This document shows, piece after piece, positions 10,650 to 64,000 of a stretch of DNA of 64,000 nt. Numbering within the stretch: position 1 is the first letter of the stretch; the number at the start of each line of letters is the position of its first letter. The notes below the pieces were generated by a model that worked only from the letters and a program-made list of their open reading frames with translations, searched no databases and was not told where the DNA came from. The stretch is from a bacterium (lineage in GTDB: Bacteria; Planctomycetota; UBA1135; UBA2386). The stretch is taken from assembly GCA_030432695.1 (NCBI GenBank), contig JAUILN010000011.1, forward strand, positions 152,950 through 216,949. Reading direction: 5' to 3'. A program made the position numbers and the translations under genes.

Positions 10650-10830
10650 CCGCGGTTGATCCGAGCGAAGTCCCACTCGACTCCGCACTTGCCTCGCCAT
10701 GAGCTGTTCCGCGCCAGACAGGTGACTTTGGGAGATCGTGCGTGTGCCCTCTCGGCGTGCGGCACTGCGACGTAGCCGCGGCGGGTCGATCGACCCGCTT
10801 CGTTCCTCGTCGCACAAGGAGTTCCCCCCC

Positions 10831-25094: not shown

Positions 25095-26363
25095 ATGACT
25101 TCCCGCCACCTCCGACTCGCCGCCGCGTCCGTCTTCGCCTCCTCCGCCCTGCTCGGGACGCACGCCGCCACCGCCCAGACCCTGCAACCGCCGTTCGACT
25201 CCGTCTACTCGGTGCGCGACCTCGGCTCCGTGCCCGGTGTCCCGTCACCCTACGGCGGCATCACCTTCAAGTACGACGATCCGGACGTTCTGCTGATCGG
25301 CGGCAGCGCCAACTCGACGACCGGCGCGATCTACGCGATCCGGGTCACCCGCGGATCGAGCGGCGAGATCACTGGCTTCCAGGGCACGGCCACCGTGCAC
25401 GCCCAGGCGCCCAACAACGACGGCGGACTGCAGTACGGCCCCAACAACGTGCTGTTCTATGCACGCTACAACCGGACCGAGATCGGTCAGATCAAGGTGG
25501 GCAGCAGCAGCCCCGACAAGGTCATCGCGCTGACCTCGGTGACCGGATGGAGCGGCGCATCGCCTGGAGCCCTGTCGTTCGTGCCGCCGGGCTACCCGGG
25601 AGCGGGTCAGTTCAAGGTCTGCTCCTATTCCGGCGGGTCCTTCCATCGCTGCGATGTGTCGCCGGACGGCAACGGCACCTTCGACCTGGTGAACATGACC
25701 GGTGTGCTGGCGCTCCCCGGCGGACCCGAGGGTCTGCTCTACCCGCCGCCCGGCTCGCCGCTGATCGCCGACTACCAGACCATCATGATCTCGGAGTACT
25801 CGGCGGCCGCGATCTCGATCTACGACGTCGACGGCCAGGGCGATCCGGTTGCCGGCACGCGCCGCGCGTTCATGACCGGCGTCGGCGGCGCCGAGGGCTC
25901 GACCATCGACGCCAGCTCCGGCGGCTTCCTGTTCTCGACCTTCGGTGGCGGCAACCGCGTGCTGGTGGTCGACGGCTTCGGCTCCTGCGGGACCTTCACC
26001 GCCTACGGATCGGGCATCCCGAACGCGCAGGGCGGAACCCCCGCGATCCGCGGCACCGGCTGCGCGAGCTTCAACCGGGCGATCAACTTCCAGGTCGGCA
26101 ACGGCCCGGCCAACGCCATCGGCGCCTTCAACGTGGGCTTCACGCGGATCAACGTGCCGCTGTTCGGCGGCTTCGTGTTGAACACGCCGGACATCCCGAT
26201 CGCGCACGGACTGGATGCCAACGGCGAGTGGACCACCACCTTGAACACGCCCAACGACCCGAGCCTGGTCGGCAACAGCATCTTCTTCCAGGCGGCCTAC
26301 TTCGACGCCACAGCACCCTTCGGCGTCACCGCGAGCTACGGCCTCGACATGCTGGTGCGCTGA
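25095..26363 (+). CDS. secreted propeller-like protein with recurrent C-terminal module
   Basis: A 422-residue exported protein (signal AAASVFASSALLGTHAATAQ). The body consists of beta-strand-rich repeats (DPDVLLIGGSANSTTGAIYA, GLQYGPNNVLFYARYNRTEI, GPEGLLYPPPGSPL), probably a propeller. The end carries the shared module in a variant form: GANG-like DANGEWTTTLNTPNDPSLVG followed by NSIFFQAAYFD. The function is unknown; export to the envelope or medium is likely. It follows the BNR gene by 54 bases in the same direction and ends before a strong palindrome. Confidence 0.7.
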   Translation: MTSRHLRLAAASVFASSALLGTHAATAQTLQPPFDSVYSVRDLGSVPGVPSPYGGITFKYDDPDVLLIGGSANSTTGAIYAIRVTRGSSGEITGFQGTATVHAQAPNNDGGLQYGPNNVLFYARYNRTEIGQIKVGSSSPDKVIALTSVTGWSGASPGALSFVPPGYPGAGQFKVCSYSGGSFHRCDVSPDGNGTFDLVNMTGVLALPGGPEGLLYPPPGSPLIADYQTIMISEYSAAAISIYDVDGQGDPVAGTRRAFMTGVGGAEGSTIDASSGGFLFSTFGGGNRVLVVDGFGSCGTFTAYGSGIPNAQGGTPAIRGTGCASFNRAINFQVGNGPANAIGAFNVGFTRINVPLFGGFVLNTPDIPIAHGLDANGEWTTTLNTPNDPSLVGNSIFFQAAYFDATAPFGVTASYGLDMLVR

Positions 26364-39765: not shown

Positions 39766-41211
39766 TCACGGAGTGATCGTGAGCACCACCGCGTTCGACA
39801 GGTACGGCCGGTATAGGTCACCGGCGAAGGCCTGGAACGCCAGGATCCCGACCAGGGCCGGATCGTTGGGAATCGTCAGCGGCACGTCGAGGCGACCGTT
39901 GGAGTTCGCGTTCGCGGCCAGGAACGAGATCAGCAGCGAGGTGTCGAGCTCGATCTCGCCGACGGGCGGCAGGGGCAGCGGGTTGGCAGCGAGGCCGATC
40001 GACACCGTGAGGCCGACCGAGTCGCCACCGCGCGGGGTGAAGGTGCTGAGCGTGGTCGCGGCACCGAGGCGGACCGTGGCCGGCTGGATGCTCAGCCGCG
40101 GAGCCGCCATGAACGACGCGCCGCGCGGGGTGAGCGCGGTGGCGCTGACCGTCTCGTCGTAGGCCTCGAACGACTCGCCGGCGTCGAGCGCGTCGCCGTC
40201 GGCGTTCAGGTCGCGCAACGCGGTGAGGCGGTTGGGAGTCTGATCCTCGCAGAGGAACACGGTGCCGTCCTCACGCAGAACCACGTCCCAGAAGGTCGAC
40301 GCGGCCGTCTGGTAGAAGACGCCCTCCTCGCTGGCCTGGATCACGCCGTCGTTGTTGGCGTCGCGGGCCCGCCAGACCTGCTCGTTGCCGTGGTCGGTGA
40401 TGTAGAAGGTGCCATCGGGCGCCACCGCGAGGCCCCAGTAGAACGGGTTGCCACCCGACGACGGCGCCCAGAACAGCGACACCTCGCCCGGGTCGTTGGC
40501 GTCGCCATCGGTGTTGAGGTCGTCGCAGCGATACACGCCCTTGATGTTCACGCCGGTCGCACCGACCTCGGCGTAGTAGAGCTTGCCGTCCGGCGCGACC
40601 ACGACCTCGGTCGGGATCGAATCGCCCAACGCCAGCTGGTTGGGGATCTGGCAGTAGATGACCGCCTCGCCGATGTCGTTGGCGTCGCCGTCGGCGTTCA
40701 GGTCGGTGAGCTTCAGGATCATGTCGACGCCGACGCTCGAGGTGTTGGAGACCGCGACGAAGACGTTGCCGAGCAGGTCGGCGGTGATGCCCTGCGCCGA
40801 CGCCATCGCCACGCCCGACGCGTTGTTGACGCCGTCGAAGAACACCTTGTGCTCGCCGCCTCCCAACGCGCTGCCGTTGCCGTCGACGTCCTCGAGCATC
40901 AGGACGATGTCCACCGTCGAGTCGCAGACGTAGGCCACGCCGTTCAGACCGACGACGATGGCGGTGGGGTTGGTCAACGCGATCGAGCCGATCGTGTCGT
41001 CGTAGAAGACGTTGATCTCGCCGGGGTCGTTGAACGAGCCGTTCTGGTTGAAGTCGGAGATCCGCCAGACGCCGTCGAACGAGCTGTCGACGACCAGCAG
41101 ATCGAGCGTGGCCGACCGCGGGATCAGCGGAGCGAACTGGGCGGGCAGGGCCGCGGGAAGTGCGGCCGCGGCAAGCGCGGCGAGGAACAGGTGGGAATGT
41201 GGCGTGTGCAT
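39766..41211 (-). CDS. secreted propeller protein with EF-hand-like calcium loops and recurrent C-terminal module
   Basis: A 481-residue exported protein from ATG 41211 (signal LFLAALAAAALPAALPAQ). Repeats alternate a propeller-type strand set (AIVVGLNGVAYVC, TEVVVAPDGKLYYAEVG, GLAVAPDGTFYITDHGNEQV) with Asp-rich loops DFNQNGSFNDPGE, DVDGNGSALGGGE, DLNADGDANDIGE, DLNTDGDANDPGE, DANNDGVIQASEE and DLNADGDALDAGE. These look like dockerin/EF-hand calcium loops ending in Glu. The C-terminal 110 residues are the shared module in variant form (VPLTIPNDPALVGILAFQAF). Export and calcium-dependent folding are inferred; the ligand is unknown. It is convergent with the FG-GAP gene (3 bases apart). Confidence 0.75.
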   Translation of the reverse strand: MHTPHSHLFLAALAAAALPAALPAQFAPLIPRSATLDLLVVDSSFDGVWRISDFNQNGSFNDPGEINVFYDDTIGSIALTNPTAIVVGLNGVAYVCDSTVDIVLMLEDVDGNGSALGGGEHKVFFDGVNNASGVAMASAQGITADLLGNVFVAVSNTSSVGVDMILKLTDLNADGDANDIGEAVIYCQIPNQLALGDSIPTEVVVAPDGKLYYAEVGATGVNIKGVYRCDDLNTDGDANDPGEVSLFWAPSSGGNPFYWGLAVAPDGTFYITDHGNEQVWRARDANNDGVIQASEEGVFYQTAASTFWDVVLREDGTVFLCEDQTPNRLTALRDLNADGDALDAGESFEAYDETVSATALTPRGASFMAAPRLSIQPATVRLGAATTLSTFTPRGGDSVGLTVSIGLAANPLPLPPVGEIELDTSLLISFLAANANSNGRLDVPLTIPNDPALVGILAFQAFAGDLYRPYLSNAVVLTITP

Positions 41212-41474: not shown

Positions 41475-44207
41475 ATGACACTCTCCCTCCACGCACCTCG
41501 CCAGCTCGTGTCTGCGTCGACCCTCGCGCTGGTGGCCCTCGCCGGCTGCTCCGCGCCCGTCGAACCCGCCGACCCCGAGGTCTTCCGCCCATCCAAGCAC
41601 GACGGCCGCGACCGCAACGCACCCGACTTCCCCGGCGACGCGTTGCGCTGGCAGACCGAGCGCTGGCAGGACGAACGCGGCGTGATCGCGGACGGCGCGT
41701 GGCTGCAGGCACTCCGCCAACGCGCGGCCCTGGTCGCCACACCGAAGCCGGAGCACACCGCCGGCGTCGCGCCGCAGGCTTGGCAGCAGCGTGGCCCGTT
41801 CAACGTGGCCGGCCGCTCGCGGACGCTGGTGGTCGACCCACGCAACCGCAACGTGCTCTGGTCGGGCGGGGTCGGCGGCGGGATCTGGAAGAGCCTCGAC
41901 GCGGGCCAGAACTGGACGGTGGTCGACGACTGGTGGAGCAACCTCGCGGTCGCGTCGCTGACCCTCGACCCGAGCGACCCCGACACGATGTACGTCGGCA
42001 CCGGCGAAGGCTTCGTCAACGTCAACGTGGCGCGCGGCGTGAACTCCAGCTCGGTGCGCGGTGCGGGCATCTTCAAGTCGAGCGACGGCGGCGGCACCTG
42101 GACCCACCTCGCCGCCACCGCGAACTGGCCGTACGTGTCGCGCGTCGCGGTGTCGCCCACCAATCCGAACGTGCTGCTGGCCTCGGTCCGCCCCGGCGGC
42201 ATCCAGCGCTCGACCGACGGCGGCAGCACCTGGAGCCAGGTCGATGCCAGCTTCGCCAGCTACCAGGTTGCGTTCGATCCGAACGACGGCCAGAAGGCGG
42301 TGGCCCACGCGATGGACCAGAGCCTCGCGACCCACCGGGTGCTGCGCTCGACCGACGCCGGCGCGAGCTGGCAGCCGGCGAGCAGCGGTCTCGCCAACGT
42401 CGCCGGCTACGACGCGCGGATCGAGCTGTGCTACGCGGCGTCGAGCCCGGGCGTGGTCTACGCGTCGGTCGGCGAGAACGGCGGGACGATCTGGCGGTCG
42501 GCGGACGGCGGCGCGAACTGGGTGCGGCGGACCACCAGCGGCGCCTCGGCCTGCAACTGGTACTACAACGGCTTCTGGGTCGATCCGACCAACGAGAACG
42601 TGATGGTGGTCGGCGCCTTCCACGTGTGGCGCAGCACCGACGGCGGCCGCACCCTGACCCAGATCACCGACGGCTACATCATGACCGTCGACCCGCACCT
42701 CGACGTCCACCACGTGGTGGCCGATGCGGGCTACGACGGCAGCTCGAACCGCCGGGTCTACGTGACGACCGACGGCGGGATCCACGTGGCCGACGACATC
42801 CTCACGGCGCGGCAGCGCAGTGGCTGGCGCGACCTCGACGACACGCAGGTCTCGACGCAGTTCTACTCCGCGGCCGGCTACGCCCCGACCGGCCTCTTGG
42901 TCGCCGGCGCCCAGGACAACGGCACGCAGCGCCTGCTGGGAACGAGTGCGACGCGGTCGAACATGACCTTCGGCGGCGACGGCGGCGTGGTGCAGATCGA
43001 CCCGACCAACCCGAGCTACGTCTACGGCGAGTACGTGTGGCTCCGCGTGTTCCGCTCCACCAACGGCGGCAGCTCCGCGAGCTTCCGCTACTCGGGGATC
43101 ACCGAGGCCGACAGCAGCGGGGCCAACTTCATCGCCCCGTTGGTCCTCGACCCGAACGACCCGCGCCGGCTCTACGGCGGCGCGTCGAGCCTGTGGCGCA
43201 CCGACGACGCGCGGCGCTCGACGATCCAGTGGCGCGCGGTGAAGCCGCCGGTCGGCAGCTTCATCTCGGCGATCGCGGTGGCGGACGGCGACCCGAACCA
43301 GGTCTGGGTCGGACACAACGACGGGCGGGTCTACCGCACCACCAATGGCACGGCGCTCAACCCCACCTGGCAGGCAGTCGACGACAACGCCGGCCTCGAC
43401 CCGCTGCCGAACCGCTACGTCGAGCGCATCGTGGTGGACGCCACCGACCACCGCCGGGTGTTCGTGACCCTCGGCGGGTTCTCGCCGGGCAACGTCCGGC
43501 TGACCACCGACGCCGGCGCGACCTTCACCGATGCGTCGGGCACCGCGCCGTTCCGCCTGCCCGACGCACCGGTCCACGGCCTCTGCCTGCACCCCGACGA
43601 CCCGCAGGTGGTCTACGCCGCCACCGAGGTCGGCCTGTTCGCCAGCGACGACGGTGGCCAGCACTGGTCGGCCAACAACGACGGCCCCGCCAACGTCTCG
43701 TGCCAGGAGATCGCGTTCCAGCACGGCTCGCGGACGCTGCTGCTCGCGACGCTCGGTCGCGGGCTATGGACCGCAGACGTGCAGCGACCCGGTGCGCTGA
43801 GCTACGGCGCCGCGTGCGCCAATGACTCGACGCCGCCCGCACTCGCCACCGACCCACGCCGCCCGGCGCGCATCGGCTTCGAACTCGGCCTCGAGGCCAA
43901 CTCCTTCCCGCCCGCCTCGCCGGCCTTTCTGATGCTCGGCGTGTCGGACACGATCTGGTCGGGTGGCAGCCTGCCGCAGCCACTCGACTCCATCGGCATG
44001 CCCGGCTGCGCGCTGCTGCAGAGCAACGACGTAGCGTTCGGTGTGACGGTCGACGCCGGCGGCGTGGCGAGCTGGTCGATCCCGCTCCCCGCCGATCCGA
44101 ACCTGCTCGGCCTGCGCCTGTTCACCCAGGCGATCGGCAGCGAGCCGGGGCTGAACGCGCGTGACCTGGCGACCACGTCCGGACTGGCGCTGACGATCGG
44201 GCGATGA
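41475..44207 (+). CDS. lipoprotein with sortilin/BNR-type beta-propeller and recurrent C-terminal module
   Basis: A 910-residue protein. The signal sequence ends in lipobox LAGC (ALVALAGCSAP). The body is a large BNR/VPS10-like propeller with repeated Asp-box motifs S-x-D-x-G-x-[ST]-W (KSLDAGQNWTVV, KSSDGGGTWTHL, RSTDGGSTWSQV, RSTDAGASWQPA, RSADGGANWVRR, RSTDGGRTLTQI, ASDDGGQHWSAN). Such propellers may be glycosidases (GH74-like) or binding proteins; no catalytic pair was identified. The last 130 residues are the clearest copy of the shared module: ASPAFLMLGVSDTIWSGGSL, MPGCALLQSNDVAF, GVASWSIPLPADPNLLGLRL then FTQAIG. Its final 530 bases are duplicated at 54078-54607. Confidence 0.85.
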   Translation: MTLSLHAPRQLVSASTLALVALAGCSAPVEPADPEVFRPSKHDGRDRNAPDFPGDALRWQTERWQDERGVIADGAWLQALRQRAALVATPKPEHTAGVAPQAWQQRGPFNVAGRSRTLVVDPRNRNVLWSGGVGGGIWKSLDAGQNWTVVDDWWSNLAVASLTLDPSDPDTMYVGTGEGFVNVNVARGVNSSSVRGAGIFKSSDGGGTWTHLAATANWPYVSRVAVSPTNPNVLLASVRPGGIQRSTDGGSTWSQVDASFASYQVAFDPNDGQKAVAHAMDQSLATHRVLRSTDAGASWQPASSGLANVAGYDARIELCYAASSPGVVYASVGENGGTIWRSADGGANWVRRTTSGASACNWYYNGFWVDPTNENVMVVGAFHVWRSTDGGRTLTQITDGYIMTVDPHLDVHHVVADAGYDGSSNRRVYVTTDGGIHVADDILTARQRSGWRDLDDTQVSTQFYSAAGYAPTGLLVAGAQDNGTQRLLGTSATRSNMTFGGDGGVVQIDPTNPSYVYGEYVWLRVFRSTNGGSSASFRYSGITEADSSGANFIAPLVLDPNDPRRLYGGASSLWRTDDARRSTIQWRAVKPPVGSFISAIAVADGDPNQVWVGHNDGRVYRTTNGTALNPTWQAVDDNAGLDPLPNRYVERIVVDATDHRRVFVTLGGFSPGNVRLTTDAGATFTDASGTAPFRLPDAPVHGLCLHPDDPQVVYAATEVGLFASDDGGQHWSANNDGPANVSCQEIAFQHGSRTLLLATLGRGLWTADVQRPGALSYGAACANDSTPPALATDPRRPARIGFELGLEANSFPPASPAFLMLGVSDTIWSGGSLPQPLDSIGMPGCALLQSNDVAFGVTVDAGGVASWSIPLPADPNLLGLRLFTQAIGSEPGLNARDLATTSGLALTIGR

Positions 44208-44214
44208 CGATCGG
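43685..44214 (+). repeat. 530-bp direct repeat, copy 1 (3' end of BNR lipoprotein gene)
   Basis: Nearly identical to 54078-54607 in the same orientation, with scattered single-base differences. The match starts at the coding sequence for PANVSCQEI, covers the last propeller blade and the whole C-terminal module, and stops 7 bases after the stop codon (shared tgacgatcgg). Confidence 0.92.
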
Positions 44215-44547: not shown

Positions 44548-45213
44548 TCACACCGAGCCGTCACCCGGCGCACCGCCCCCCGACTCGGTCTCGGTGCGTC
44601 CGACCGACTTCTCGAGGCGGTCCAACTCCTGGACCAGACGGGCACGGGCCCGGTGGAGCAGCTGGCGAACAGACGGCTCGTTGCGCTGCATCCGTTCCGC
44701 GATCTCCGCGTAGGAAAGCTTCATGATGCCGCGCAGACAAATCACCTCGCGGTCGTCGGCGGACAACCGCTCGATCGCCCGCTCGATCCGTTCCACCGCC
44801 TCCTTCTCCGCCAGGTGCCGACTCGGAGTCCAGACGCTCCGGTAGGCACCGAGTAGCTGCTCGGGACGGGAGACGCGGTCGTCAAGCCGGACCTGGCGAT
44901 CGAATCCACGCTTCTCCGCCGCGAAGCCGCGCGCCCGCGACCGGATCTTTCGCTCCGCCAAGGTCGACAGCCACGACCGGAACTCGCCCTCCGTGGTGCC
45001 ACGAAAGTCCTCGAAGTCCTCGAGGACGACCCGGCAGACCGACTGGACCAGATCCGAGCTGGACTCCAGCTGACGCATCCGCTCGCCGCAGTTCAGGCGC
45101 ACGTAGGCCCTCAGGTCGGGCTCCACGATCTGGAGGAGCCGACCGAGCGCGTCTCGGTCACCACCGATCGCCGCAGCGAGCGCCGCAGCGAGTTCCTTCT
45201 GTTGCTCCTCCAT
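44548..45213 (-). CDS. ECF sigma factor paired with Ser/Thr kinase
   Basis: A 221-residue sigma factor. Region 2: PDLRAYVRLNCGERMRQLES then SSDLVQSVCRVVLEDFEDFR; region 4: LSADDREVICLRGIMKLSYA then EIAERMQRNEPSVRQLLHRA. It has a Gly/Glu-rich tail (TETESGGGAPGDGSV). The start is 3 bases after the kinase stop, a tight two-gene operon with the kinase first, the same order as at 29293-32916. The sequences of the two sigma factors are clearly different, so the pairs are old paralogues or separate acquisitions. Likely controlled by phosphorylation. Confidence 0.9.
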   Translation of the reverse strand: MEEQQKELAAALAAAIGGDRDALGRLLQIVEPDLRAYVRLNCGERMRQLESSSDLVQSVCRVVLEDFEDFRGTTEGEFRSWLSTLAERKIRSRARGFAAEKRGFDRQVRLDDRVSRPEQLLGAYRSVWTPSRHLAEKEAVERIERAIERLSADDREVICLRGIMKLSYAEIAERMQRNEPSVRQLLHRARARLVQELDRLEKSVGRTETESGGGAPGDGSV

Positions 45214-45216
45214 GAT

Positions 45217-47847
45217 TCAGCGAACCTCCAGCAGTCCATCGAGTTCCAGCCGGTGCCGCAACCTGGTAGCCACGGCCGGGTCCAGGCCAGCGGTCAACCT
45301 GCCGAGCAGTTCCTCGATGTGGTCTCCGAGGACGTCACCGTGCCGACGAATTACCATGAGCGCATCGACCGGAGCCACTGCCGCGAGCGACTCGGCCAGC
45401 CGCCGCGCGGTCTGCCAGTCGGTCGGGTCCTCGGCCAGACGACGCGCGCACTGATACTCCCCGAGTGCTCGTCGCAGCTCCGGGCCGCATTCCAACGCAT
45501 CGCCGAGAAGCAGACGCTCCAGGTAGTCCGCCAGGACCTCGGTGTGCGGCTCCAGGCGAAGCGATCGCGCGACGGCCAAGCAACGCTCTTCCAGAGACCC
45601 TTCCGACAAGGCGGCTGCAACCGACAGGTTGGTGCGCAGCGCATCGTTGCGGATTCCCGTCCGCGCCTCGCGCGGCAGGTCCGCGAGCCGCGAGAAGGTC
45701 TCGAAACCGCGGTGGAACAACGCGTCCGCCGCGTCCGGATCTTCGCTGGCGAGGCCTTCGTGGACGTCCACGGTGGCCAGCGAGAACTCCTCGAGAACAC
45801 CGTCGAGTCTCTCCCGTGCGACTTCTCGGGCCTCCGCGAACCGCTGCTGGTCGCGCAGCACGAGGTGCAGCTGCATCGGGTAGTTCGGGTGGCTCGGCGT
45901 ATGCGCCATGGCCCGGCGGGCGAGTTGCTCCGCGAGTTCCAACGAGCCACGCCGCCGGTAGGCGCGAGCCAGGTTGAGCATCGACGGCAGGTGGTCGGGC
46001 GCGCGCTCCAACACGGCCGCGAACGCGTCCAGGGAGTCGTTGCCGATCCGACCGTAGGCGGATTCCGCCGCACCCTGGAAGAACCACAGGAACGCCGTGT
46101 CGTGCGGCACACGATCCGACCGCTCACCGAGCATCGACTTGCCTTCGGCCAGCCTCCCACACTCGAACAAGCCGGTGATGCGGAGCCGCTCCAGCAAGGA
46201 AGCAAGAGTCTCGGCCCTCGGTGCCAGAGCGATGGTCAGGTCGATCACCCTGCTGATCTCCCGGCGATTCCGCAGCGCATCCGCCAGAGCGTCGATCCCG
46301 GTGAGGATCTCGTCGTCGATACCGTTCTGCAGAATCCGTCGGTCCTCACCCGCCTTCGCCTGGTCCTCGGCCGCAGCGGATTCGACCAGGACGAGCCAAC
46401 GCAGGTAGCGGGCCTCGAGATCGTCGGCGTCGAGAGCCAGTAGCTCGTCGAGCGCGGCGAGGTCGCTGCCGCGCCCGGGATCCCGCAGGCGTTCCTCGGC
46501 CGTCCCGGACAAGCCGAGAGTCGGACTCAACGCTGCGCGCAGTTCGCCGCGCCGTGCCTCACGCGCGTTCGACTCCCGCTCCAGACGACTCGCCATCGGG
46601 CCTGCCAGCGTCACGGCCCCGCCCACCATCAGGGCGGCGACCAACAGACCGGCGGGAACTGCGATCCGCGCCGGCGGGGCGTAGCGACGCGCCAGGCCAC
46701 CAACCCGCCGCAGCGCACGCGGCCAACGGGAGCCGCGAGCCACGACCGGCTCGTAGCGGAGCAACCGCCGCAGGTCGGCCCCGAGCTCCGCTGCCGTGGG
46801 GTAGCGGTCTGCGGGGCTCTTGCGCATCGCCTGCTGGCAGACCGCCGCGAAGTCGCGAGGCACCCGGTGGCGGCGCTCCGCTGACGGGCTCGGTTCCTCG
46901 AACTGCACGGCGGCGAGCACCTCGCTCGACGTGCCCCGGAACGGGCGCTCCAGGTACAGCAACTCGAACAGCGTCACGCCGACGCCGTGCAGGTCGGTAC
47001 GGGTGTCAGCCGTCTCACCGCGCACCTGCTCGGGAGCCATGTAGGCCGGCGTGCCGAGCATCGCACGGGTCGCGGTCAACGATCCGTCTCCAGCCACCGC
47101 AGCCAACCCGAAGTCGAGCAGGCGGATCCGGCCGGAACGGTCGAGCATGAGGTTGCCGGGCTTGAGATCGCGGTGGACGACACCCGCAGCGTGGGCCGAA
47201 TCCAGCGCGTCACAGATCTCGATGCCGAACTGCGCCACGACGGCGGGCCAGGGTCTCAGCAGGTGCTCGGGCAACTCGGCGCCGTCCAGACCCAGCAGTT
47301 CGGACCAGCGGTCGCGGGCGTCACGCGGTCCGTCCCGCGACGTGGTACTGTCGGCATGCACCCACGAGAACTGCTCGATGCATCGACTGAGGTCCACGCC
47401 CTCGATCCGGTCCATGACCATGAAGGTGGGGTCCCCCTCTTGGATGTCGTGGACCCGCGCGATCCCGGCGTGGTCCAGTCCGGCAAGCACCTGCGCCTCG
47501 CGTCGAAAACGCGCCAGGAGTTCCGGATTCGACCATTGGGCGCCCGGCAGGATCTTCACCGCGACGGTCCGGCCCAGGCGTTCGTCGACGGCCTCGTGAA
47601 CGACCCCCATGCCGCCGGAACCAAGCCGACGACCGAGGACGTAGCGGGCGTCGAGCCGACGCCCGATCCACGGATCAATTCCGCTGAATTCCTCGGGGAG
47701 ATCACCGGCAGTCGCCACCAGGGATCGAAGCCGCGCGGCCAAGTCGGGATCACCGGAGCACAGCGACTCGAGATCCGGAGTGACTCCGCTCTCCGCGAAC
47801 TCGAAGTAGCGGGCCAGCAGGCTTTCGAGGACATCGTCTCGGGACAT
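45217..47847 (-). CDS. membrane Ser/Thr protein kinase with helical repeats
   Basis: An 876-residue Hanks-type kinase from ATG 47847. N-terminal helix (DVLESLLARYFEFAESG), then kinase: LGRRLGSGGMGVVHEA (71-86), Lys98 (VAVKILP), HRDLKPGN (225-232), DFGLAA (245-250), GTPAYMAPEQ. A 40-residue insertion at about 160-200 (HADSTTSRDGPRDARDRWSE onward) separates hinge and catalytic loop. A membrane helix at 394-416 (AVPAGLLVAALMVGGAVTLA) is followed by about 450 residues of TPR-like helices (DHLPSMLNLARAYRRRGSLE and similar). The downstream sigma gene is 3 bases away. The upstream secreted-protein gene ends 44 bases before, so all three may be one transcript. Confidence 0.92.
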   Translation of the reverse strand: MSRDDVLESLLARYFEFAESGVTPDLESLCSGDPDLAARLRSLVATAGDLPEEFSGIDPWIGRRLDARYVLGRRLGSGGMGVVHEAVDERLGRTVAVKILPGAQWSNPELLARFRREAQVLAGLDHAGIARVHDIQEGDPTFMVMDRIEGVDLSRCIEQFSWVHADSTTSRDGPRDARDRWSELLGLDGAELPEHLLRPWPAVVAQFGIEICDALDSAHAAGVVHRDLKPGNLMLDRSGRIRLLDFGLAAVAGDGSLTATRAMLGTPAYMAPEQVRGETADTRTDLHGVGVTLFELLYLERPFRGTSSEVLAAVQFEEPSPSAERRHRVPRDFAAVCQQAMRKSPADRYPTAAELGADLRRLLRYEPVVARGSRWPRALRRVGGLARRYAPPARIAVPAGLLVAALMVGGAVTLAGPMASRLERESNAREARRGELRAALSPTLGLSGTAEERLRDPGRGSDLAALDELLALDADDLEARYLRWLVLVESAAAEDQAKAGEDRRILQNGIDDEILTGIDALADALRNRREISRVIDLTIALAPRAETLASLLERLRITGLFECGRLAEGKSMLGERSDRVPHDTAFLWFFQGAAESAYGRIGNDSLDAFAAVLERAPDHLPSMLNLARAYRRRGSLELAEQLARRAMAHTPSHPNYPMQLHLVLRDQQRFAEAREVARERLDGVLEEFSLATVDVHEGLASEDPDAADALFHRGFETFSRLADLPREARTGIRNDALRTNLSVAAALSEGSLEERCLAVARSLRLEPHTEVLADYLERLLLGDALECGPELRRALGEYQCARRLAEDPTDWQTARRLAESLAAVAPVDALMVIRRHGDVLGDHIEELLGRLTAGLDPAVATRLRHRLELDGLLEVR

Positions 47848-47891
47848 GTGGAATGCCTCGTTGGGTGTACGCGGGTCGGCGCCCCCAAGGC

Positions 47892-49388
47892 TCAGTAGTT
47901 GAAGTAGAGCAACTCGGAGATTCCGACCTGACCAAGCCCGTCCATCGCCGCGACCGCGAGGTAGAGGGTCTGCGACCGGAGCGGCGAGTTCCGGATCGGC
48001 ATCAACAGCCCGCCCACCCGCATGGGCAACGCGCTCGTCTTTGCCGGCCAAGACATCGGAGGTTCGAACGGGAGCGGCATGAACGGCAGGTTGCTGCTCC
48101 GGAAGAACACGATCGCCGCGATCCCCGACCCAGTGAACTGCGGCCACATCCTGGCATGGACCGAGAGCGCATCCACCGAGTTGGGATCGGACGGACCCGC
48201 CTGGACCCGGAAACAGCTCGCCTGGATGGTCGGAGCCCCGGGAAAGACCGAGCGGAGGGAGCTTCGCACCGGAAAACCGACCAGGCGAGTCACCGAGTCG
48301 TATGGTTGGCCTTGCAAGGGATCCTCTTCCGGATCGAGGATGCAGATCGCGTCGATGTCGTCGGTGTTCGTCATCCCGGGCGCGAGGACCCGCCCCACCG
48401 GGCCACGGATCCGGAACTCGTACGGGACCGGCGGCCCGGAACCCGGTTGTGCGCCGTAGAGATACACCATCAACTGCTCATCCACCGGTGCCCCGGCAGT
48501 GGAGAACACCAATCGCTGCTGCGCGGCGTCCACCGACAATGCATCCAGTTCGGCACTCGCGCTCAGTCCGAGATCAGCCGCGCTCCGGAAGACCGACGGC
48601 CCGGCCCATGAACCACCCCCCCCCGGGCTCGGAGTCCACTCCATCTTCAGGATCGCCGCACCGCTCGGCACGTCCATCCCCCACCACGCCGGAGGCGAGA
48701 TCTGCGCGCTCGCGCTCGTGAGGGAGAAGTAGAACGTCGGAGCCGTACTCAGGACTGCGCCGACGACGTCCGAGCCCGGCGCGGTGTAGTAGGCCATGTT
48801 CAGATCGAGTGCGTCGATCTCGCCCTGGGGGTCGATCCCGAGCTCCTCGTCCTCGTTCGACAGCACAATGACGTCGGCGGTTCCTCCGGGAACCGCCGTA
48901 CTCCCCGGATAGAAGTATCCGAACAGGTCCGCGCCATTGTCCGGCAACTGCGCCGGGACCGCGTCCTTGAACACCCCGCCGCGGACAACCGACATCGTCA
49001 GGAATCCCCAAGCAGGGACACCCGGGGGATCGGGAATCACCGGCCTGCCATCGCTCAGGATCTGCAGGTTGATGTAGGCCTCACCGATCGACATTGCGTC
49101 GACGTCCAGACTGGCCAAGACCCACATTGCCGCGCTGCTGAAGTCCGGCAGCCCTCCCGTCGCCGGAGCGAATTCGGCGGCGCCGCCCTGGGCACCTGCC
49201 GGGATCGACACCGGGAAACCGGCGGGCAGAGCGCCGCCCGTGGAACTGCCGGTCCCCGAAGCGACGGAGATGCCGTGAGGAGCCGAGGCAAGTGGAGCGA
49301 CCGGTTCCGCCGCGACCTGAGCCATGACGGTCGGGGACAGCGAGGCGGCGAGCGCGAATGCCACCGCACCAGCGAATGGTGTCGACAT
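47892..49388 (-). CDS. secreted protein of unknown function upstream of kinase-sigma pair
   Basis: A 498-residue exported protein. ATG 49388 is preceded by AAGGAG at a 7-base spacing, one of the clearest ribosome binding sites in the window, and gives signal AGAVAFALAASLSPTVMAQ. The sequence is beta-rich and contains repeats of a type seen in planctomycete secreted proteins: LASLDVDAMSIGEA, EIDALDLNMAYYT, ELDALSVDAAQQRLVFST, DIDAICILDPEEDP and SVDALSVHARMW, all variants of a D-x-D-A-[LMI] motif followed by a strand. This suggests five related propeller-like or sandwich units. Function unknown; position suggests it could deliver or sense the signal for the kinase behind it. Confidence 0.65.
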   Translation of the reverse strand: MSTPFAGAVAFALAASLSPTVMAQVAAEPVAPLASAPHGISVASGTGSSTGGALPAGFPVSIPAGAQGGAAEFAPATGGLPDFSSAAMWVLASLDVDAMSIGEAYINLQILSDGRPVIPDPPGVPAWGFLTMSVVRGGVFKDAVPAQLPDNGADLFGYFYPGSTAVPGGTADVIVLSNEDEELGIDPQGEIDALDLNMAYYTAPGSDVVGAVLSTAPTFYFSLTSASAQISPPAWWGMDVPSGAAILKMEWTPSPGGGGSWAGPSVFRSAADLGLSASAELDALSVDAAQQRLVFSTAGAPVDEQLMVYLYGAQPGSGPPVPYEFRIRGPVGRVLAPGMTNTDDIDAICILDPEEDPLQGQPYDSVTRLVGFPVRSSLRSVFPGAPTIQASCFRVQAGPSDPNSVDALSVHARMWPQFTGSGIAAIVFFRSSNLPFMPLPFEPPMSWPAKTSALPMRVGGLLMPIRNSPLRSQTLYLAVAAMDGLGQVGISELLYFNY

Positions 49389-49612: not shown

Positions 49613-52480
49613 ATGAAGAGGGATCGAAGCTCGTGGAGACACCTGTCGATGCTGGTGTGGCTCTGCACAGGTGCCGCGTCCGCACAGTCCGCAGCGCCGA
49701 GATCGGCCGAGGAGATCCTCGCCGACACGGATCTGGTCGTCGCTGGAACGGTGCAGGAGGCACACGCGGAGTGGCTCGACCGGTCGGTCGGCTCGATCGC
49801 GACGGTCTACTCGCTGAAGCTGCAACACACGGTGTTCGACCACCGCGCCCTCGTTGCGGGACTGCGCGACGCCGACGGGCTGCGGCTGCGTTTCGCCGGA
49901 GGAGAGATCGGCGACCAGGGCTTCCGGATCGCCGGAGTACCCGCGATGACCGTCGGTGAAACGGTGGTGCTATTCGTATCGGCACGCGATCTGGGATCGG
50001 CCTGCCCGCTTGCGGGAGGGGCCGCGGGATTGTTCCGGGTCTCTTCGACGAACACCGTATGCGACGCCGCGGGAAGCCCGGTCACGCGGCGCTACCTCTC
50101 CACGGAAGAGGACCGGCCGGGTGGTTTCACGTGCGCAGACTTTCTCCAGGAAGTGGCACGGGCCCGCCCCCTCGTGAATGCGCTCCAGTCGCCGCGGGGC
50201 GGATCGACGCGACAGAGTGACTGCGGAGTTCCGATCTGCCAGCCGATCCGCGTCGCTCCGGAGGACCGTCGTGACCCGCCGCATCCTTCCGGAGCCATTC
50301 CCGCACCTATCACGGGAGGAACCCGCCGAGCAGCGGCCTCGGGTGGCGGCGGCTGCCAGAACCCCAACGGCGTGCGCCCACTGTTCGGGTACTCGTTGAC
50401 GATCCCCGACCTCTACAGCGCGCCCTCACCGTGGAGAGCCGCAGTTCGCCGCGGCATCGGTCGCTGGCGCACGTATGCGTCGGGCGTGTTCTTCGACTAC
50501 GTCGGCACCCACAACACCTACGGGTTCTTCAATGGCTTCAACGATTTCGCGTTCGCCGACGACGCGGGAATGCAGACCGCCTACGGGATCACGTTCGGCT
50601 CCTACATCACCTACACCGCGCTGCGGACCGTCCGGCAGAACCACCAGTGGAACATCGTCGAGGCCGACATCCTGGCCCGCTTCGACGCCGGCTGGACCAC
50701 CGATCCACAGCAGGCCCACCTCGGACGGGCCTACCTTCTCGAAGGCATCTTCGCACGGGAACTCGGCTACGCGGTCGGCATGGATCGGCAGGGGAACTGC
50801 GCCCCCAACTCGAACTGCAACTCGGTGATGAACAACGGACCCGGCCCGATCGACCTGCTGTCGGCCCTGGTCGCGGCCCCCTACCGGGTCGACATCGAGA
50901 AGCTGCTGGCGCCGGACATGTACCCGTTGAATTCCACGAACATCACCGACTTCGGGATCCATCTGTTCCGGACCGTCGGCGGACCGACCGGCATTCCGGG
51001 AGGTGTCCGCGCCGCCTGGGCCTCCCACCCGGCTTCGGTGACACGCGGCAACTCGTTCGCACTGCAGGGATTCTCCGCCGAACACCTGATCGGTGTCGGT
51101 AGTGCTCCGACCGTGGAATTCCGACTGACCCCGGCTCGCGGGAGTCTCGCCGGAGCCATCGTCTGCAACCGCGTCCAACTGCCGTTCCTGAGCAACTCCT
51201 CGATCGTCACCAATGCGTCGGTGACGGTCCCCGGACACACCCCTCCCGGGAGCTACCACCTCGCCGCGGTTGTGGTGTCGCCAGACGGCAATGCGCACAA
51301 CGATGTGTCCTGGTCGGGCAGCCCCCTGCGCGTGGACCTGCCCCTGCACACCCTCCGGGTCGATGCAGCTCCGGCACCTACCCGTACGATCGTGACCTTC
51401 TCGGTCAACGGTGGCCCCCACCAGGACCATTGGACTCCGGTCGCGCAGAATCACCCCGAAGGAACGGGACTCGATCTCTGGGCCATCCCGCTGGCGAACC
51501 GTCGACCGTTCGACCGGTGGATCGTCGACGGAGTGCCGCAGACACCGGGCAACGTCCATACCCGCGTGACGATGAACGCCGCGCACACCCTGGTCGCCCA
51601 GTATGGCGCGCCCTTCCTCTACGGTTCCTACCGCGCCTACGGGACCGGCTGCGGTGGATCTACGACCTGCGCGAGCCTCAATGGATCCGCGCCGAGCCTG
51701 GCAGGTCTCACCGTGCCGACGAGACGGCGTTTCGCCCTGCAACTGGCCGGTCTCCCGCCGACGGTCGTGACGAGTGCCGAACTCCGGATACGGGCGAACC
51801 GTTCGCTATCGATTCCGATCGAGATCCAGGCACAGGACCCCGCCACCGGCGGGCCATCCGGAGTCACGCTCGCCTCCACGACCCTGCAGGCCAGCACACA
51901 ATCAGTCTGGCAACGCGCCACCTTCGCCAATCCCGTGACGCTCCCGGCCGGCGACTACTTCCTGCTGCTGGAGTCCCCCGGGCCCGAACTCGAGCTGCCG
52001 GTCGCCGCCAGCGGCAATCTCGGCAACCACCACGTGGAGATCGCACCGGGCAACTGGGTCGGCCCGTTCGCCCTGGAGTGGGCCTGGCGAATTCTGTGTC
52101 CCGGCGCCGGCCCGACACTGACGAACGTCGGTACGCCGGAGATCGGACGCCCTGTCACCATCCGCCTCGATCAGGCGCCGCCCGCGCACCAGGCATTCCT
52201 AATGACCGGGTTCTCGAACACATCCTGGGGCCCCCGCCCCCTGCCGTTCTCACTCGATCCATTGGGGGCGCCCGGCTGTTCCGTGCTCGCCAGCTGTGAA
52301 GTGGTCGACTCGGTGACCACCAGCAGCATCGGGACCGCTTCGGTCACGCTACGGATTCCGGGCTCGCTGCAGTTCTACGGAGCCCGCTTCTACAACCAGT
52401 GGGCAGTCCTCGATCCGAGCGCAAATCCGCTCGGCCTGCGTTTGAGCAATGCGGGCAGCGGTTTCGTCGGCCATCCCTGA
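49613..52480 (+). CDS. secreted degenerate matrixin-like protein with recurrent C-terminal module
   Basis: A 955-residue exported protein (signal LSMLVWLCTGAASAQSA). An N-terminal 180-residue domain is followed by a region resembling a matrixin fold (WRAAVRRGIGRWRTYASGVF, then FDYVG), where the zinc helix reads RELGYAVGMDR (382-392) in place of HExxHxxGxxH: the Glu and Gly remain but all three His are lost. NSVMNNG stands where the Met-turn would be. Ig-like and beta-sandwich domains follow (LRITPA-like FRLTPARGSLAGA; LQASTQSVWQRATFANPV). The last 120 residues are the shared module (LGAPGCSVLASCEV ... RIPGSLQFYGARFYNQWAVL). If it is a pseudo-protease it may bind proteins without cutting. It starts divergently from the gene at 47892-49388. 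Confidence 0.7.
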   Translation: MKRDRSSWRHLSMLVWLCTGAASAQSAAPRSAEEILADTDLVVAGTVQEAHAEWLDRSVGSIATVYSLKLQHTVFDHRALVAGLRDADGLRLRFAGGEIGDQGFRIAGVPAMTVGETVVLFVSARDLGSACPLAGGAAGLFRVSSTNTVCDAAGSPVTRRYLSTEEDRPGGFTCADFLQEVARARPLVNALQSPRGGSTRQSDCGVPICQPIRVAPEDRRDPPHPSGAIPAPITGGTRRAAASGGGGCQNPNGVRPLFGYSLTIPDLYSAPSPWRAAVRRGIGRWRTYASGVFFDYVGTHNTYGFFNGFNDFAFADDAGMQTAYGITFGSYITYTALRTVRQNHQWNIVEADILARFDAGWTTDPQQAHLGRAYLLEGIFARELGYAVGMDRQGNCAPNSNCNSVMNNGPGPIDLLSALVAAPYRVDIEKLLAPDMYPLNSTNITDFGIHLFRTVGGPTGIPGGVRAAWASHPASVTRGNSFALQGFSAEHLIGVGSAPTVEFRLTPARGSLAGAIVCNRVQLPFLSNSSIVTNASVTVPGHTPPGSYHLAAVVVSPDGNAHNDVSWSGSPLRVDLPLHTLRVDAAPAPTRTIVTFSVNGGPHQDHWTPVAQNHPEGTGLDLWAIPLANRRPFDRWIVDGVPQTPGNVHTRVTMNAAHTLVAQYGAPFLYGSYRAYGTGCGGSTTCASLNGSAPSLAGLTVPTRRRFALQLAGLPPTVVTSAELRIRANRSLSIPIEIQAQDPATGGPSGVTLASTTLQASTQSVWQRATFANPVTLPAGDYFLLLESPGPELELPVAASGNLGNHHVEIAPGNWVGPFALEWAWRILCPGAGPTLTNVGTPEIGRPVTIRLDQAPPAHQAFLMTGFSNTSWGPRPLPFSLDPLGAPGCSVLASCEVVDSVTTSSIGTASVTLRIPGSLQFYGARFYNQWAVLDPSANPLGLRLSNAGSGFVGHP

Positions 52481-54077: not shown

Positions 54078-54600
54078 CCCCGCCAACGTCTCGTGCCAGG
54101 AGATCGTGTTCCAGCACGGCTCAAGGACGCTGCTGCTCGCGACGCTCGGTCGCGGGCTATGGACCGCAGACGTGCAGCGACCCGGCGCCCGGAGCTACGG
54201 CTCCGCGTGCGCCAACGACTCGACGCCGCCGCGCCTCGCCACCGACCCACGCCGCCCGGCGCGGATCGGCTTCGAACTCGGCCTCGAGGCCAACTCCTTC
54301 CCGCCCGCCTCGCCGGCCTTCCTGATGCTCGGCGTCTCCGACACGGTCTGGTCGGGCGGCGGTCTCCCACAGCCACTCGACGGCGTCGGCATGCCCGGCT
54401 GCGCCCTGCTGCAGAGCAACGACGTGGCGTTCGGTGTAACGGTCGACGCCGGCGGCGTGGCGAGCTGGTCGATCCCGCTCCCCGCCGATCCGCACCTGCT
54501 CGGCCTGCGCCTGTTCACCCAGGCGATCGGCAGCGAGCCGGGGCTGAACGCGCGTGACCTGGCGACCACGTCCGGACTGGCGCTGACGATCGGGCGATGA
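54078..54600 (+). pseudogene. truncated copy of BNR lipoprotein C-terminus (promiscuous module fragment)
   Basis: This frame is open from 54043 and encodes SPANVSCQEIVFQHGSRTLL and so on, nearly identical to the last 175 residues of the lipoprotein at 41475-44207, including PLPADPHLLGLRLFTQ. It has no signal peptide and lacks all but the last propeller blade, so it is a 3' fragment rather than a complete gene. The frame is undamaged over its length, which points to a recent duplication or to gene conversion with the intact copy. Confidence 0.85.
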
Positions 54601-54607
54601 CGATCGG
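54078..54607 (+). repeat. 530-bp direct repeat, copy 2
   Basis: Second copy of the repeat at 43685-44214. Ends coincide at the shared tgacgatcgg after the stop codon; left border is in a run of C residues before gccaacgtctcg. Confidence 0.92.
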
Positions 54608-60883: not shown

Positions 60884-61064
60884 ATGGAGATGGACGGGGC
60901 CTTCGATGCGCGCGACTCCTGGCACCTCGCCCGCGACGCCGCGGCGCTCGGAATCCTGCCGGACATCGGCGGAACCGCACACTGGTCGATCCCACTCCCG
61001 GAGCCAGCGGCAGACGTGGGTGGCAGAACGGTCATCCGACGGTTACAGCAGCAACCTGCTGATG
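60884..61064 (+). pseudogene. possible decayed remnant of the recurrent C-terminal module
   Basis: Starting at ATG 60884, one frame reads MEMDGAFDARDSWHLARDAA, then ALGILPDIGGTAHWSIPLPE and PAADVGGRTVIRRLQQQPAD. It aligns with the intact module DAGGVASWSIPLPADPNLLG and LRLFTQAIGSEPGL, with WSIPLP conserved exactly. No complete host gene remains and the segment runs into the following gene, so it looks like a relic. Confidence 0.45.
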
Positions 61065-64000
61065 GCCTGCGCCGCAAACCACCCGCCTACCGAGCCTCGA
61101 TCGCATGTCTCGCGGGTCGGCGCGTGGACATTGCGCTTCACCTGTGCGTTCACCGCACTCCTCTGGTCGACGGTTGCGGCCCAGGAGCGGCACTGGTCGC
61201 TGCGCCCGGTCGCCGACCCGCCGACGCCGCAGGTCGCCGACGCGTCGTGGCCGCGAACCGACCTCGACCACTTCGTGCTCGCCCGGCTCGAGTCGGCGGG
61301 CCTCGCTCCCGCGGCCGAGGCCGACCGGCGCACCCTGATCCGGCGTGCGGCGTTCGTGCTGACCGGACTTCCCCCGACCGCGGAACAGGTCGATGCCTTC
61401 GTCGCCGACGACGCACCCGAGGCCTGGCACACGGTCGTCGAGCGGCTGCTCGCCTCCGACGCCTACGGCGAACGCTGGGGCCGGCACTGGCTCGATCTCG
61501 CCCGCTACTCCGACACCAAGGGCTACGTCTACGGCGGCGAGGAGCGGCGCTTCGTCCATAGCCACGTGTATCGCGACTGGGTGATCCGGGCGTTCCGCGA
61601 CGACGTCCCGTACGACCGCTTCTTGAAGCTGCAGCTCGCCGCCGACCAGATGGTCGACGCACCCGACGCGCCCGACCTGGCCGCGATGGGCTTCCTGACG
61701 CTCGGTCCACGGTTCCTCGGCGTGGTCCACGACATCATCGACGACCGCATCGACACGACGTTCCGCACCATGCAGGGACTGACCGTCGCGTGCGCCCGGT
61801 GCCACGACCACAAGTACGACCCGGTCCCGACCACCGACTACTACGCGCTCTACAGCGTGTTCGCGTCGTCGCGCGAACGGACCCGCACCCTTGCCGAACC
61901 GGCGAGGGCTCCCGACCGTCGCCCCTCCGAGCAGGTCGCCGCGTACGAGCAGGAGCACGCGAAGCGCCGCGACGCGCTCGCCGCGAAGCTGACCACCAGC
62001 CGGACCGCGCTCGAGGCGCGCCTGCGCGCGAAGGCCAGGGAGTACCTCGTGGCCGTCCTCGACGTCGAATCGCTTCCGACCGAGGACTTCGTGATGCTGC
62101 TCGGCGACGACGACATCAACCCGGTCTTCGTCCGCCAATGGCGTGACTGCATCGACGCCCGGAGCGCCGAGGACGATCCGATCTTCGGTCCGTGGCACGC
62201 GTACCGGGAGCTGCCCGAGGCCGGGTTCGCGGATCGCGCTCGGGACCTGGCGACGCATTGGCGCACGGCCCCCGCCAACGTCAATCCGCACGTCGGTGCA
62301 CTGTTCGACGACACAGTCCCAACCTCGATGCGCGAGGTCGCGGAGCGCTACGGAGAGCTGTTCGCGACGGTCGACCGGACGTGGCGCGGTCTGCTCGAGG
62401 ATGCGGCATCGAGCAGTGCCCCCGCGCCGGCCGCCTTCGAGGACCCCGACCGTGAAGCCCTGCGGCAGATGCTGTACGGCCAGGACGCACCGACGCGGGT
62501 CGCCGAGGGCCCGGTCGTCGAGCTCGAGTGGTACTTCCCTGCCGCGGAACGCGCAGCGCTACGTAAGCTGCAAGGAGCCCTCGACACCCTGGCCTTCGAA
62601 CACCCGGGCGCCCCACCGCAGGCGGTCCTCCTCGAGGACCGTCCCGAACCGCACGACGGACGGGTCTTCGAACGCGGCAACCCGGCTCACCCTGGAGCAC
62701 GCGTCGCCCGGCGATTCCCCGCCGCCCTGTCCCCGACCGACCGCGGCGACTTCCAGCACGGCAGCGGACGCCTGGAGATGGCTCGCGCGATCGCGTCGCC
62801 CGACAACCCGCTGACCGCGCGCGTCATGGTCAATCGGATCTGGCAGCAGCACTTCGGCGCCGGACTGGTCCGCACCCCGAGCGACTTCGGCACGCGGGGC
62901 ACCCCACCGACCCACCCGGAGCTGCTCGACTTCCTGGCGTCGCGGTTCGTCGAGGACGGCTGGTCGATCAAGGCCCTGCACCGGCGCATCCTGAGATCGG
63001 CGACGTGGCGGCAGTCGTCCTCGGTATCCGTCGAGGCGATCGCTCGCGACCCCGAGAACCGACTGCTCGGCCGCGCGCGGCGACGCCGCCTCGAGTTCGA
63101 AGCACTGCGCGACTCCCTGCTCGCGGTCAGCGGCGAGCTCGACCGCACCGCCGGTGGCCCCGGCTTCGAGCTGACCGCCCGGCCCACGGTCCCCCGCCGC
63201 ACGGTCTACGCGCGCATCGACCGCGGCTTCGTCCCTTCCGTGCTGCGCACCTTCGACTTCGCGAATCCCAAGCACCACGCGGCCGAGCGCTTCGAGACCT
63301 CGATCCCGCAGCAGGCGCTGTACCTGCTCAATGCGGACTTCGTGGCAGACCGCGCGCGGGCCCTCGTCGCGGGTCTCGACGCCGCGGCGGGGAGCGAGCC
63401 GACAGCACGGATCGCACACCTCTACCGCAGGCTCTACCAGCGCCCGCCCACTGCGCGCGAGCTCGAAGCAGGCCACCGCTTCGTGACCGAAGCGATCGTC
63501 GAGCCTGCCGAACCCCCGACACCCGGCGCCGCCGACTGGAGCTACGGCTACGGTCGGTTCGACCCGGCGACCTCGCGCACGGTCGACTTCGCAGCCCTCC
63601 CGCACTTCACCGGCAGCGCCTGGCAAGGTGGCCCGAGCCTGCCGGATCGGACGCTCGGCTGGGTCCGGCTCACCGCCGACGGCGGGCACACCGGCAACGA
63701 CCTGGCCCACGCCGCGATCCGCCGCTTCCAGGCGCCGCGCGCCGGGAAGCTGTCGATCGAGGGCGTGCTCCGCCACGAGCTCGCCGAAGGGGAAGGAATA
63801 CGCGGTCGCATCGTCTCCAGCCGGAGCGGCCTGCTGGCGACCTGGGAGCTGCACGACCAGCAGGCGACGACCGCGATCGACCCGGTGCACGTCGAGGCCG
63901 GCGAGACCTTGGACTTCGTCGTCGACTTCCGCACCACGCTCGGTTGGGACACCTTCCACTGGGCGCCGGTGCTCCGCGCGATCGACGGCGGCGACGAGGT
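61062..64000 (+). CDS. DUF1549/DUF1553 planctomycete protein, 3' end outside window
   Basis: The frame is open to the end of the window (about 980 residues visible). ATG 61062 is the most upstream sensible start; TTG 61131 would give a compact signal peptide (RFTCAFTALLWSTVAAQ) and may be the real one. DUF1549: DLDHFVLARLESAGLAPAAE, RRAAFVLTGLPPTAEQVDAF, YGERWGRHWLDLARYSDTKG, and a CxxCH heme-like motif in VACARCHDHKYDPV. DUF1553: PLTARVMVNRIWQQHFGAGL, PTHPELLDFLASRFVEDGWS, RRILRSATWRQSS, IPQQALYLLNADFV. The usual N-terminal PSD1 cytochrome domain is absent, as DUF1549 begins right after the signal peptide. Such genes usually precede a DUF1501 protein and belong to planctomycete polysaccharide-degradation-type loci; the periplasm is the likely place of action. 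Confidence 0.85.
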   Translation, partial: MACAANHPPTEPRSHVSRVGAWTLRFTCAFTALLWSTVAAQERHWSLRPVADPPTPQVADASWPRTDLDHFVLARLESAGLAPAAEADRRTLIRRAAFVLTGLPPTAEQVDAFVADDAPEAWHTVVERLLASDAYGERWGRHWLDLARYSDTKGYVYGGEERRFVHSHVYRDWVIRAFRDDVPYDRFLKLQLAADQMVDAPDAPDLAAMGFLTLGPRFLGVVHDIIDDRIDTTFRTMQGLTVACARCHDHKYDPVPTTDYYALYSVFASSRERTRTLAEPARAPDRRPSEQVAAYEQEHAKRRDALAAKLTTSRTALEARLRAKAREYLVAVLDVESLPTEDFVMLLGDDDINPVFVRQWRDCIDARSAEDDPIFGPWHAYRELPEAGFADRARDLATHWRTAPANVNPHVGALFDDTVPTSMREVAERYGELFATVDRTWRGLLEDAASSSAPAPAAFEDPDREALRQMLYGQDAPTRVAEGPVVELEWYFPAAERAALRKLQGALDTLAFEHPGAPPQAVLLEDRPEPHDGRVFERGNPAHPGARVARRFPAALSPTDRGDFQHGSGRLEMARAIASPDNPLTARVMVNRIWQQHFGAGLVRTPSDFGTRGTPPTHPELLDFLASRFVEDGWSIKALHRRILRSATWRQSSSVSVEAIARDPENRLLGRARRRRLEFEALRDSLLAVSGELDRTAGGPGFELTARPTVPRRTVYARIDRGFVPSVLRTFDFANPKHHAAERFETSIPQQALYLLNADFVADRARALVAGLDAAAGSEPTARIAHLYRRLYQRPPTARELEAGHRFVTEAIVEPAEPPTPGAADWSYGYGRFDPATSRTVDFAALPHFTGSAWQGGPSLPDRTLGWVRLTADGGHTGNDLAHAAIRRFQAPRAGKLSIEGVLRHELAEGEGIRGRIVSSRSGLLATWELHDQQATTAIDPVHVEAGETLDFVVDFRTTLGWDTFHWAPVLRAIDGGDE

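Follow-up and report, generated by a model that had tools for sequence, protein, structure and literature searches.

A predominantly C-terminal Ig-like module on diverse exported proteins of a planctomycete: a possible targeting or surface-attachment domain

Several systems are known in which a terminal feature shared by many exported proteins determines where these proteins end up. SLH modules are terminal attachment modules which occur on many exported proteins, are functional from either end of the protein and are built from repeated helical units. PEP-CTERM/exosortase and LPXTG tails, by which unrelated exported proteins are sorted through their C-termini, are short and combine a motif with a transmembrane helix and a basic end. 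Substrates of type IX secretion carry a Sec-type signal peptide and a C-terminal Ig-like domain, which is found on many diverse proteins in large copy numbers (PMC10202324), and published descriptions confine these C-terminal domains (CTDs) to Bacteroidota. The type IX CTDs fall into the families type A (TIGR04183/PF18962) and type B (TIGR04131/PF13585). Here, we describe a module of a member of the Planctomycetota which, with a probability of roughly one half, we regard as a terminal targeting or retention (surface-attachment) domain whose action would be comparable to that of type IX CTDs and SLH anchors, while it belongs to neither.

The starting point is a window of 64 kb, meaning the whole stretch of DNA analysed (C10:152950-216949), from an assembly of 10.03 Mb in 37 contigs that is 88% complete. 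The original prediction had named six proteins, a fragment and a relic as carriers of a common C-terminal module. By an iterated HMM the six proteins indeed end in one homologous module of about 125 residues, each at the extreme C-terminus, with bit scores of 103 (41475), 102 (49613), 63 (25095), 42 (10738), 40 (12355) and 34 (39766, minus strand). The features, with proteins named after one of their coordinates in the window and the part in front of the module called the passenger, are the following:

10738-12234 protein, module at 11869-12231, plus strand: C-terminal module, weak subfamily, of a Vgb-like propeller protein
12355-13755 protein, module at 13390-13752, plus strand: C-terminal module, weak subfamily, of a Vgb/SGL-like protein, the adjacent paralogue of the 10738-12234 protein
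25095-26363 protein, module at 26004-26360, plus strand: C-terminal module
39769-40140, minus strand: C-terminal module (weak subfamily) carried by an NHL/Ca-loop propeller protein which ends at 39766
41475-44207, plus strand: BNR/Sortilin-type propeller protein of 910 residues with a lipoprotein-like signal peptide, which carries the reference module
43800-44204, plus strand: C-terminal module of the 41475-44207 protein, the reference copy (YGAAC linker, invariant GC cysteine)
49613-52480 protein, module at 52094-52477, plus strand: C-terminal module
54078-54607, plus strand: 531-bp segment copied from 43685-44214 (94.9% identity) with the module and stop codon, without the full passenger
60926-61120, plus strand: decayed short relic of the module (tblastn, 33.8% identity over 65 residues, E 1.6e-5)

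The fragment at 54078 does carry the module (bit score 103) but is no independent gene: it is the end of the 41475 gene, its C-terminal part, duplicated without the passenger. A further piece of this gene end (80 bp, 87.5%) lies on the same contig in region L108 at 10010-10089. The relic noted near 60884 is genuine, though weak and short. That the N-terminal parts are unrelated does not apply to the 10738 and 12355 proteins, which are neighbouring Vgb-propeller paralogues with modules 51% identical, while the passengers are otherwise diverse. Beside the 41475 gene, the translations reveal the ORFs of an ECF-type sigma factor and of a Ser/Thr protein kinase (44548-48147, minus strand).

The weak and the strong copies belong to one family: a profile built from weak copies only, including four copies of the window, aligns with the profile of the strong copies over 112 columns (hhalign, E 1.1e-20), and the weak window copies are therefore true relatives. 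Both sets also show the same strand pattern in AlphaFold2 predictions. For 90 module members no match beyond chance was obtained in Pfam and NCBIfam, a PDB sequence search with the module was negative, a search of phage and plasmid collections with a single module copy returned nothing significant, and the open-licence literature yielded no account of a domain of this kind from planctomycetes. An exact DNA pattern of the module gave no match in GTDB contigs, this pattern being so strict that it misses every locus of the source genome as well. None of the libraries searched has a family model for the module, which exists on a larger scale than had been implied before.

The consensus of 90 copies contains near-invariant Pro14, Gly17, Gly38, Leu53, Gly57, Gly60, Pro88, Gly95, Gln101, and Asn110, and an invariant Cys61, the cysteine of the GC pair of residues. 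A second cysteine precedes the HMM start by about 10-20 residues, often within [YF]GxGC, and the upstream and the module cysteine are both present in 147 of 183 copies (odds ratio 8.6, p 0.0009). From this co-occurrence, the domain very probably includes the upstream segment and a disulfide; the pairing of cysteines is as expected for a location outside the cytoplasm. The domain starts about 16 residues before the motif first proposed for it, at [YF]GxGC. AlphaFold2 predicts an all-beta sandwich both for the 41475 copy (43827-44204; mean pLDDT 97.2) and for the 10738 copy modelled with the weak set (mean pLDDT 86.1), so that the strong and the weak sets appear as alike Ig-like beta-sandwiches and the fold comparison that had been suggested supports a single family. 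Foldseek retrieved generic Ig-like and neocarzinostatin-type structures only (best E about 0.002-0.003, TM about 0.4-0.5) and none at E <= 0.001. The module is accordingly modelled as an extracytoplasmic Ig-like domain of about 125 residues that would be stabilised by a disulfide, as the statistical association of the two cysteines suggests.

When the module of the 41475 protein was used as single query against the source genome, at least 150 significant places were obtained from 431 candidates. A set of 100 regions around those matches (2.0 Mb) was taken and the HMM was iterated over all their ORFs, by which the module was found in 250 distinct ORFs, the six window proteins and the 54078 fragment among the matches. 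A random sample of twenty 20-kb regions contained 19 module ORFs, and extrapolation from these 20 regions gives about 480 copies genome-wide (476; 95% interval 287-744). If this estimate of 290-740 holds, approximately 1 gene in 20 of the genome carries this one unnamed domain, and as there is no Pfam or NCBIfam model, it is missing from the annotation of hundreds of proteins per genome. Across the phylum, 76 of 392 sampled genomes have module matches. The same order accounts for 41 of these, the source genome included, and no genome of this order is among the negatives listed, which start with other orders; the other 35 positive genomes are scattered across other families. Twelve chosen other genomes of the phylum hold from 7 to at least 119 copies each, several of these counts being lower bounds. 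Within the source genome, module genes often occur in runs of several neighbouring paralogues (regions L009, L010, L015, and L016).

The module had been described as fixed at the C-terminus, and this is borne out for most copies: 234 of the 250 module ORFs (94%) have at most 18 residues between the module and the stop codon, and 9 more have a tail of 34-41 residues, with which about 97% are terminal. Although the seed and the first matches were C-terminal copies, a local HMM search is equally able to report internal ones. All 26 copies of the random regions and the window have tails of at most 38 residues, and of 37 copies examined in other genomes 36 lie at the C-terminus. The rule is broken by the remaining one of these 37 and by about 2.4% of the copies in the source genome, namely six clearly non-terminal ones, of which those in L085 and L051 and the two in L081 directly follow the signal peptide and those in L041 and L097 lie mid-protein; one further ORF (L031) is of doubtful position. 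The L041 (9461-11116, minus strand) and L097 (9011-10780, plus strand) proteins are related and continue behind the module with a similar C-terminal domain of 180 residues. Two candidates were rejected. The apparently internal copy in L050 (9455-12160, plus strand) results from two module genes joined in one ORF, where the stop of the first is missing through a lost stop codon or an assembly error and the second keeps its own signal peptide. The ORF in L060 (9128-10246, plus strand), in which a kinase fragment is in frame with a module C-terminus directly behind the remains of a sigma factor, is a decayed mosaic. Fragments of a sigma factor and a kinase adjoin a module in L060, as sigma factor and kinase ORFs stand beside the 41475 gene.

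These positions bear on the function of the module. It might be a strictly C-terminal signal for secretion through an outer-membrane export system not yet described, a functional twin of type IX; the signal would be read by a translocon and possibly be removed or conjugated afterward. In 94-97% of the copies the architecture agrees with that published for type IX substrates (PMC10202324), which speaks for this explanation; we nevertheless consider it unlikely, if worth serious consideration, as the few N-terminal or internal copies oppose it. Since such copies exist, the module is not an obligatory C-terminal signal; in view of the few N-terminal ones, an attachment domain able to act at either terminus is likelier than an export signal confined to the C-terminus, and attachment or binding is the better-fitting role.

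The copy number within single proteins and the history of the copies concern another explanation, by which the module would be an accessory ligand-binding beta-sandwich (for a glycan, mineral, or protein) that is C-terminal by chance, was spread by gene duplication and has no common sorting role. Such a domain would agree with the generic nature of Ig-like folds, with weak PDB fold matches that include a carbohydrate-binding module and nanobodies, with the N-terminal or internal position of some copies and with the duplication of modules together with their passengers. However, none of the 250 ORFs has two significant module copies, which sets the module apart from repeated adhesion or binding domains, and the terminal position is almost fixed across families of the phylum; few passengers are carbohydrate-active (the Pfam lists contain a single CBM96 and no family of glycoside hydrolases), and we judge this explanation to be quite unlikely, more so than a strict signal.

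The joint history of modules and passengers can be followed by sequence identity. The only full-length relatives of the 41475 protein that were obtained come from three Planctomycetota MAGs, on which ground the source genome is taken as that of a planctomycete; all of these relatives keep the module, and in the two that were aligned the passenger is 65-67% and the module 45-47% identical to the 41475 protein. Within the source genome, nearest module neighbours at >=60% identity have homologous passengers in 19 of 19 cases, and neighbours at 45-60% identity in 43 of 51; at 35-45% identity the fraction is 41 of 111, compared with 6% for random pairs. As recent module relatives have homologous passengers in nearly all cases, most copies arose together with the passenger by gene duplication, and the recombination of the module with new passengers is older. 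The term promiscuous, by which the module had been characterised, is hence appropriate over long times but not for recent copies.

The passengers themselves are diverse. Among 149 module proteins scanned, about 25 contain Kelch and about 12 FG-GAP repeats; others are sulfatases, subtilases, M28 and reprolysin-type (M12B) peptidases, beta-lactamase-like proteins, a peroxidase, RCC1 and beta-helix proteins, while ELWxxDGT repeats occur in 11 of 74 module proteins. The only glycosylhydrolase-named match is that of the 41475 protein itself, and it is below its cut-off. Propellers (Kelch, Vgb, BNR, and FG-GAP) are over-represented, as would be expected if the module were a cap that helps exported repeat proteins such as propellers to fold or shields them from proteases, without any targeting function. 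This is very improbable, given that the module is also found on sulfatases, peptidases, a peroxidase and beta-helix proteins, and that polar Gln101 and Asn110, which a cap would not need although they may be structural, are conserved across modules of 25-40% identity.

Export of the passengers is supported by a signal-peptide heuristic, which is positive or near-positive for 80% of 205 module proteins, compared with 46% of 770 other genes and 10% when it is applied to gene interiors. Many of the remaining module proteins have an obvious signal peptide by eye which was missed by the rule or by the choice of the start. The 41475 protein has a lipobox in common with its relative in L129, which by inspection is the sole convincing lipobox among module proteins. 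From its sequence the 41475 family looks lipidated too, and the module is hence not always the only anchor.

For a domain that is single, terminal, extracytoplasmic and indifferent to its passenger, a role in targeting or attachment is the best explanation. The passenger proteins would leave the cytoplasm via a Sec-type signal peptide, the module would fold and be oxidised once outside, and a common receptor, on the cell surface or within the matrix, would bind it, by which hundreds of unrelated passengers would be delivered to or kept at one place. The common receptor, the surface location, the export route and a passage of the outer membrane driven by binding are postulated elements of this scheme; neither a receptor nor a partner secretion machinery was identified in the source genome. 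Secretins are encoded there at 5 loci, which are not specific and which nothing ties to the module; given these secretins, a folded substrate could use a type II-like route. The 6-7 non-terminal copies, the apparent lipidation of the 41475 family and the joint retention of passenger and module in recent duplicates count against the targeting or attachment reading. The sorting, anchoring or surface-attachment role put forward in the original prediction is strengthened by a single C-terminal module on diverse exported proteins throughout the phylum, and tempered by the N-terminal and internal copies.

The type IX-like secretion system that had been envisaged as a companion of the module was searched for with models of its components. 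None of TIGR04183, PF18962, PF13585 and relatives matched among 90 module members, and the TIGR04183 profile had no match in the whole source genome while a control genome was positive. In the same assembly, 88% complete, the models of the PorU sortase and of PorV were without match, the only control match of the latter being below the cut-off, and SprA_N had no match in 392 genomes of the phylum, with no control genome positive either. A basic end as in type IX, where secretion depends on basic residues of the final strand, is likewise absent, Lys occurring in the last 13 residues of only 16 of 248 modules; the terminal arginine, considered as such a motif, was rejected as it is no commoner than in other exported proteins. 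All this weighs further against a strict C-terminal signal. Many Planctomycetota may, as a tentative and somewhat doubtful extension of our analysis, possess an undescribed sorting system independent of type IX, in which the Ig-like domain would mark hundreds of substrates per genome and an unannotated envelope protein would serve as receptor or translocon. Should the module serve as a tag for sorting or attachment, sequence alone would suffice to list the exported and surface proteins of many Planctomycetota, and a search for the partner which recognises the tag would have a definite target; otherwise, an Ig-like family that is so expanded and positionally fixed still wants another explanation.

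Compared with known systems, the module shares its fold class with generic Ig-like and neocarzinostatin-type sandwiches of the PDB, to which there is no functional link. It differs from carbohydrate-binding or other repeatable accessory domains, which mostly accompany carbohydrate-active enzymes and often stand internally or in tandem, in its passengers and in the lack of tandem copies. Like PEP-CTERM and LPXTG tails it is a C-terminal feature of unrelated exported proteins; however, it is a folded domain, and TM-like C-terminal ends (3 of 248 module proteins) and LPxTG-like strings (one among 248 C-termini) are rare. With SLH it has in common that a terminal attachment-type module is carried by many exported proteins, whereas it is not homologous by Pfam and consists of a single Ig-like domain instead of repeated helical units. 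Judged by the family models, it is not a type IX CTD, from which it differs by its greater length (about 125 residues), its conserved cysteine pair and its occasional N-terminal or internal copies, and which it resembles in being a C-terminal Ig-like sandwich present in many copies on unrelated proteins with a Sec-type signal peptide.
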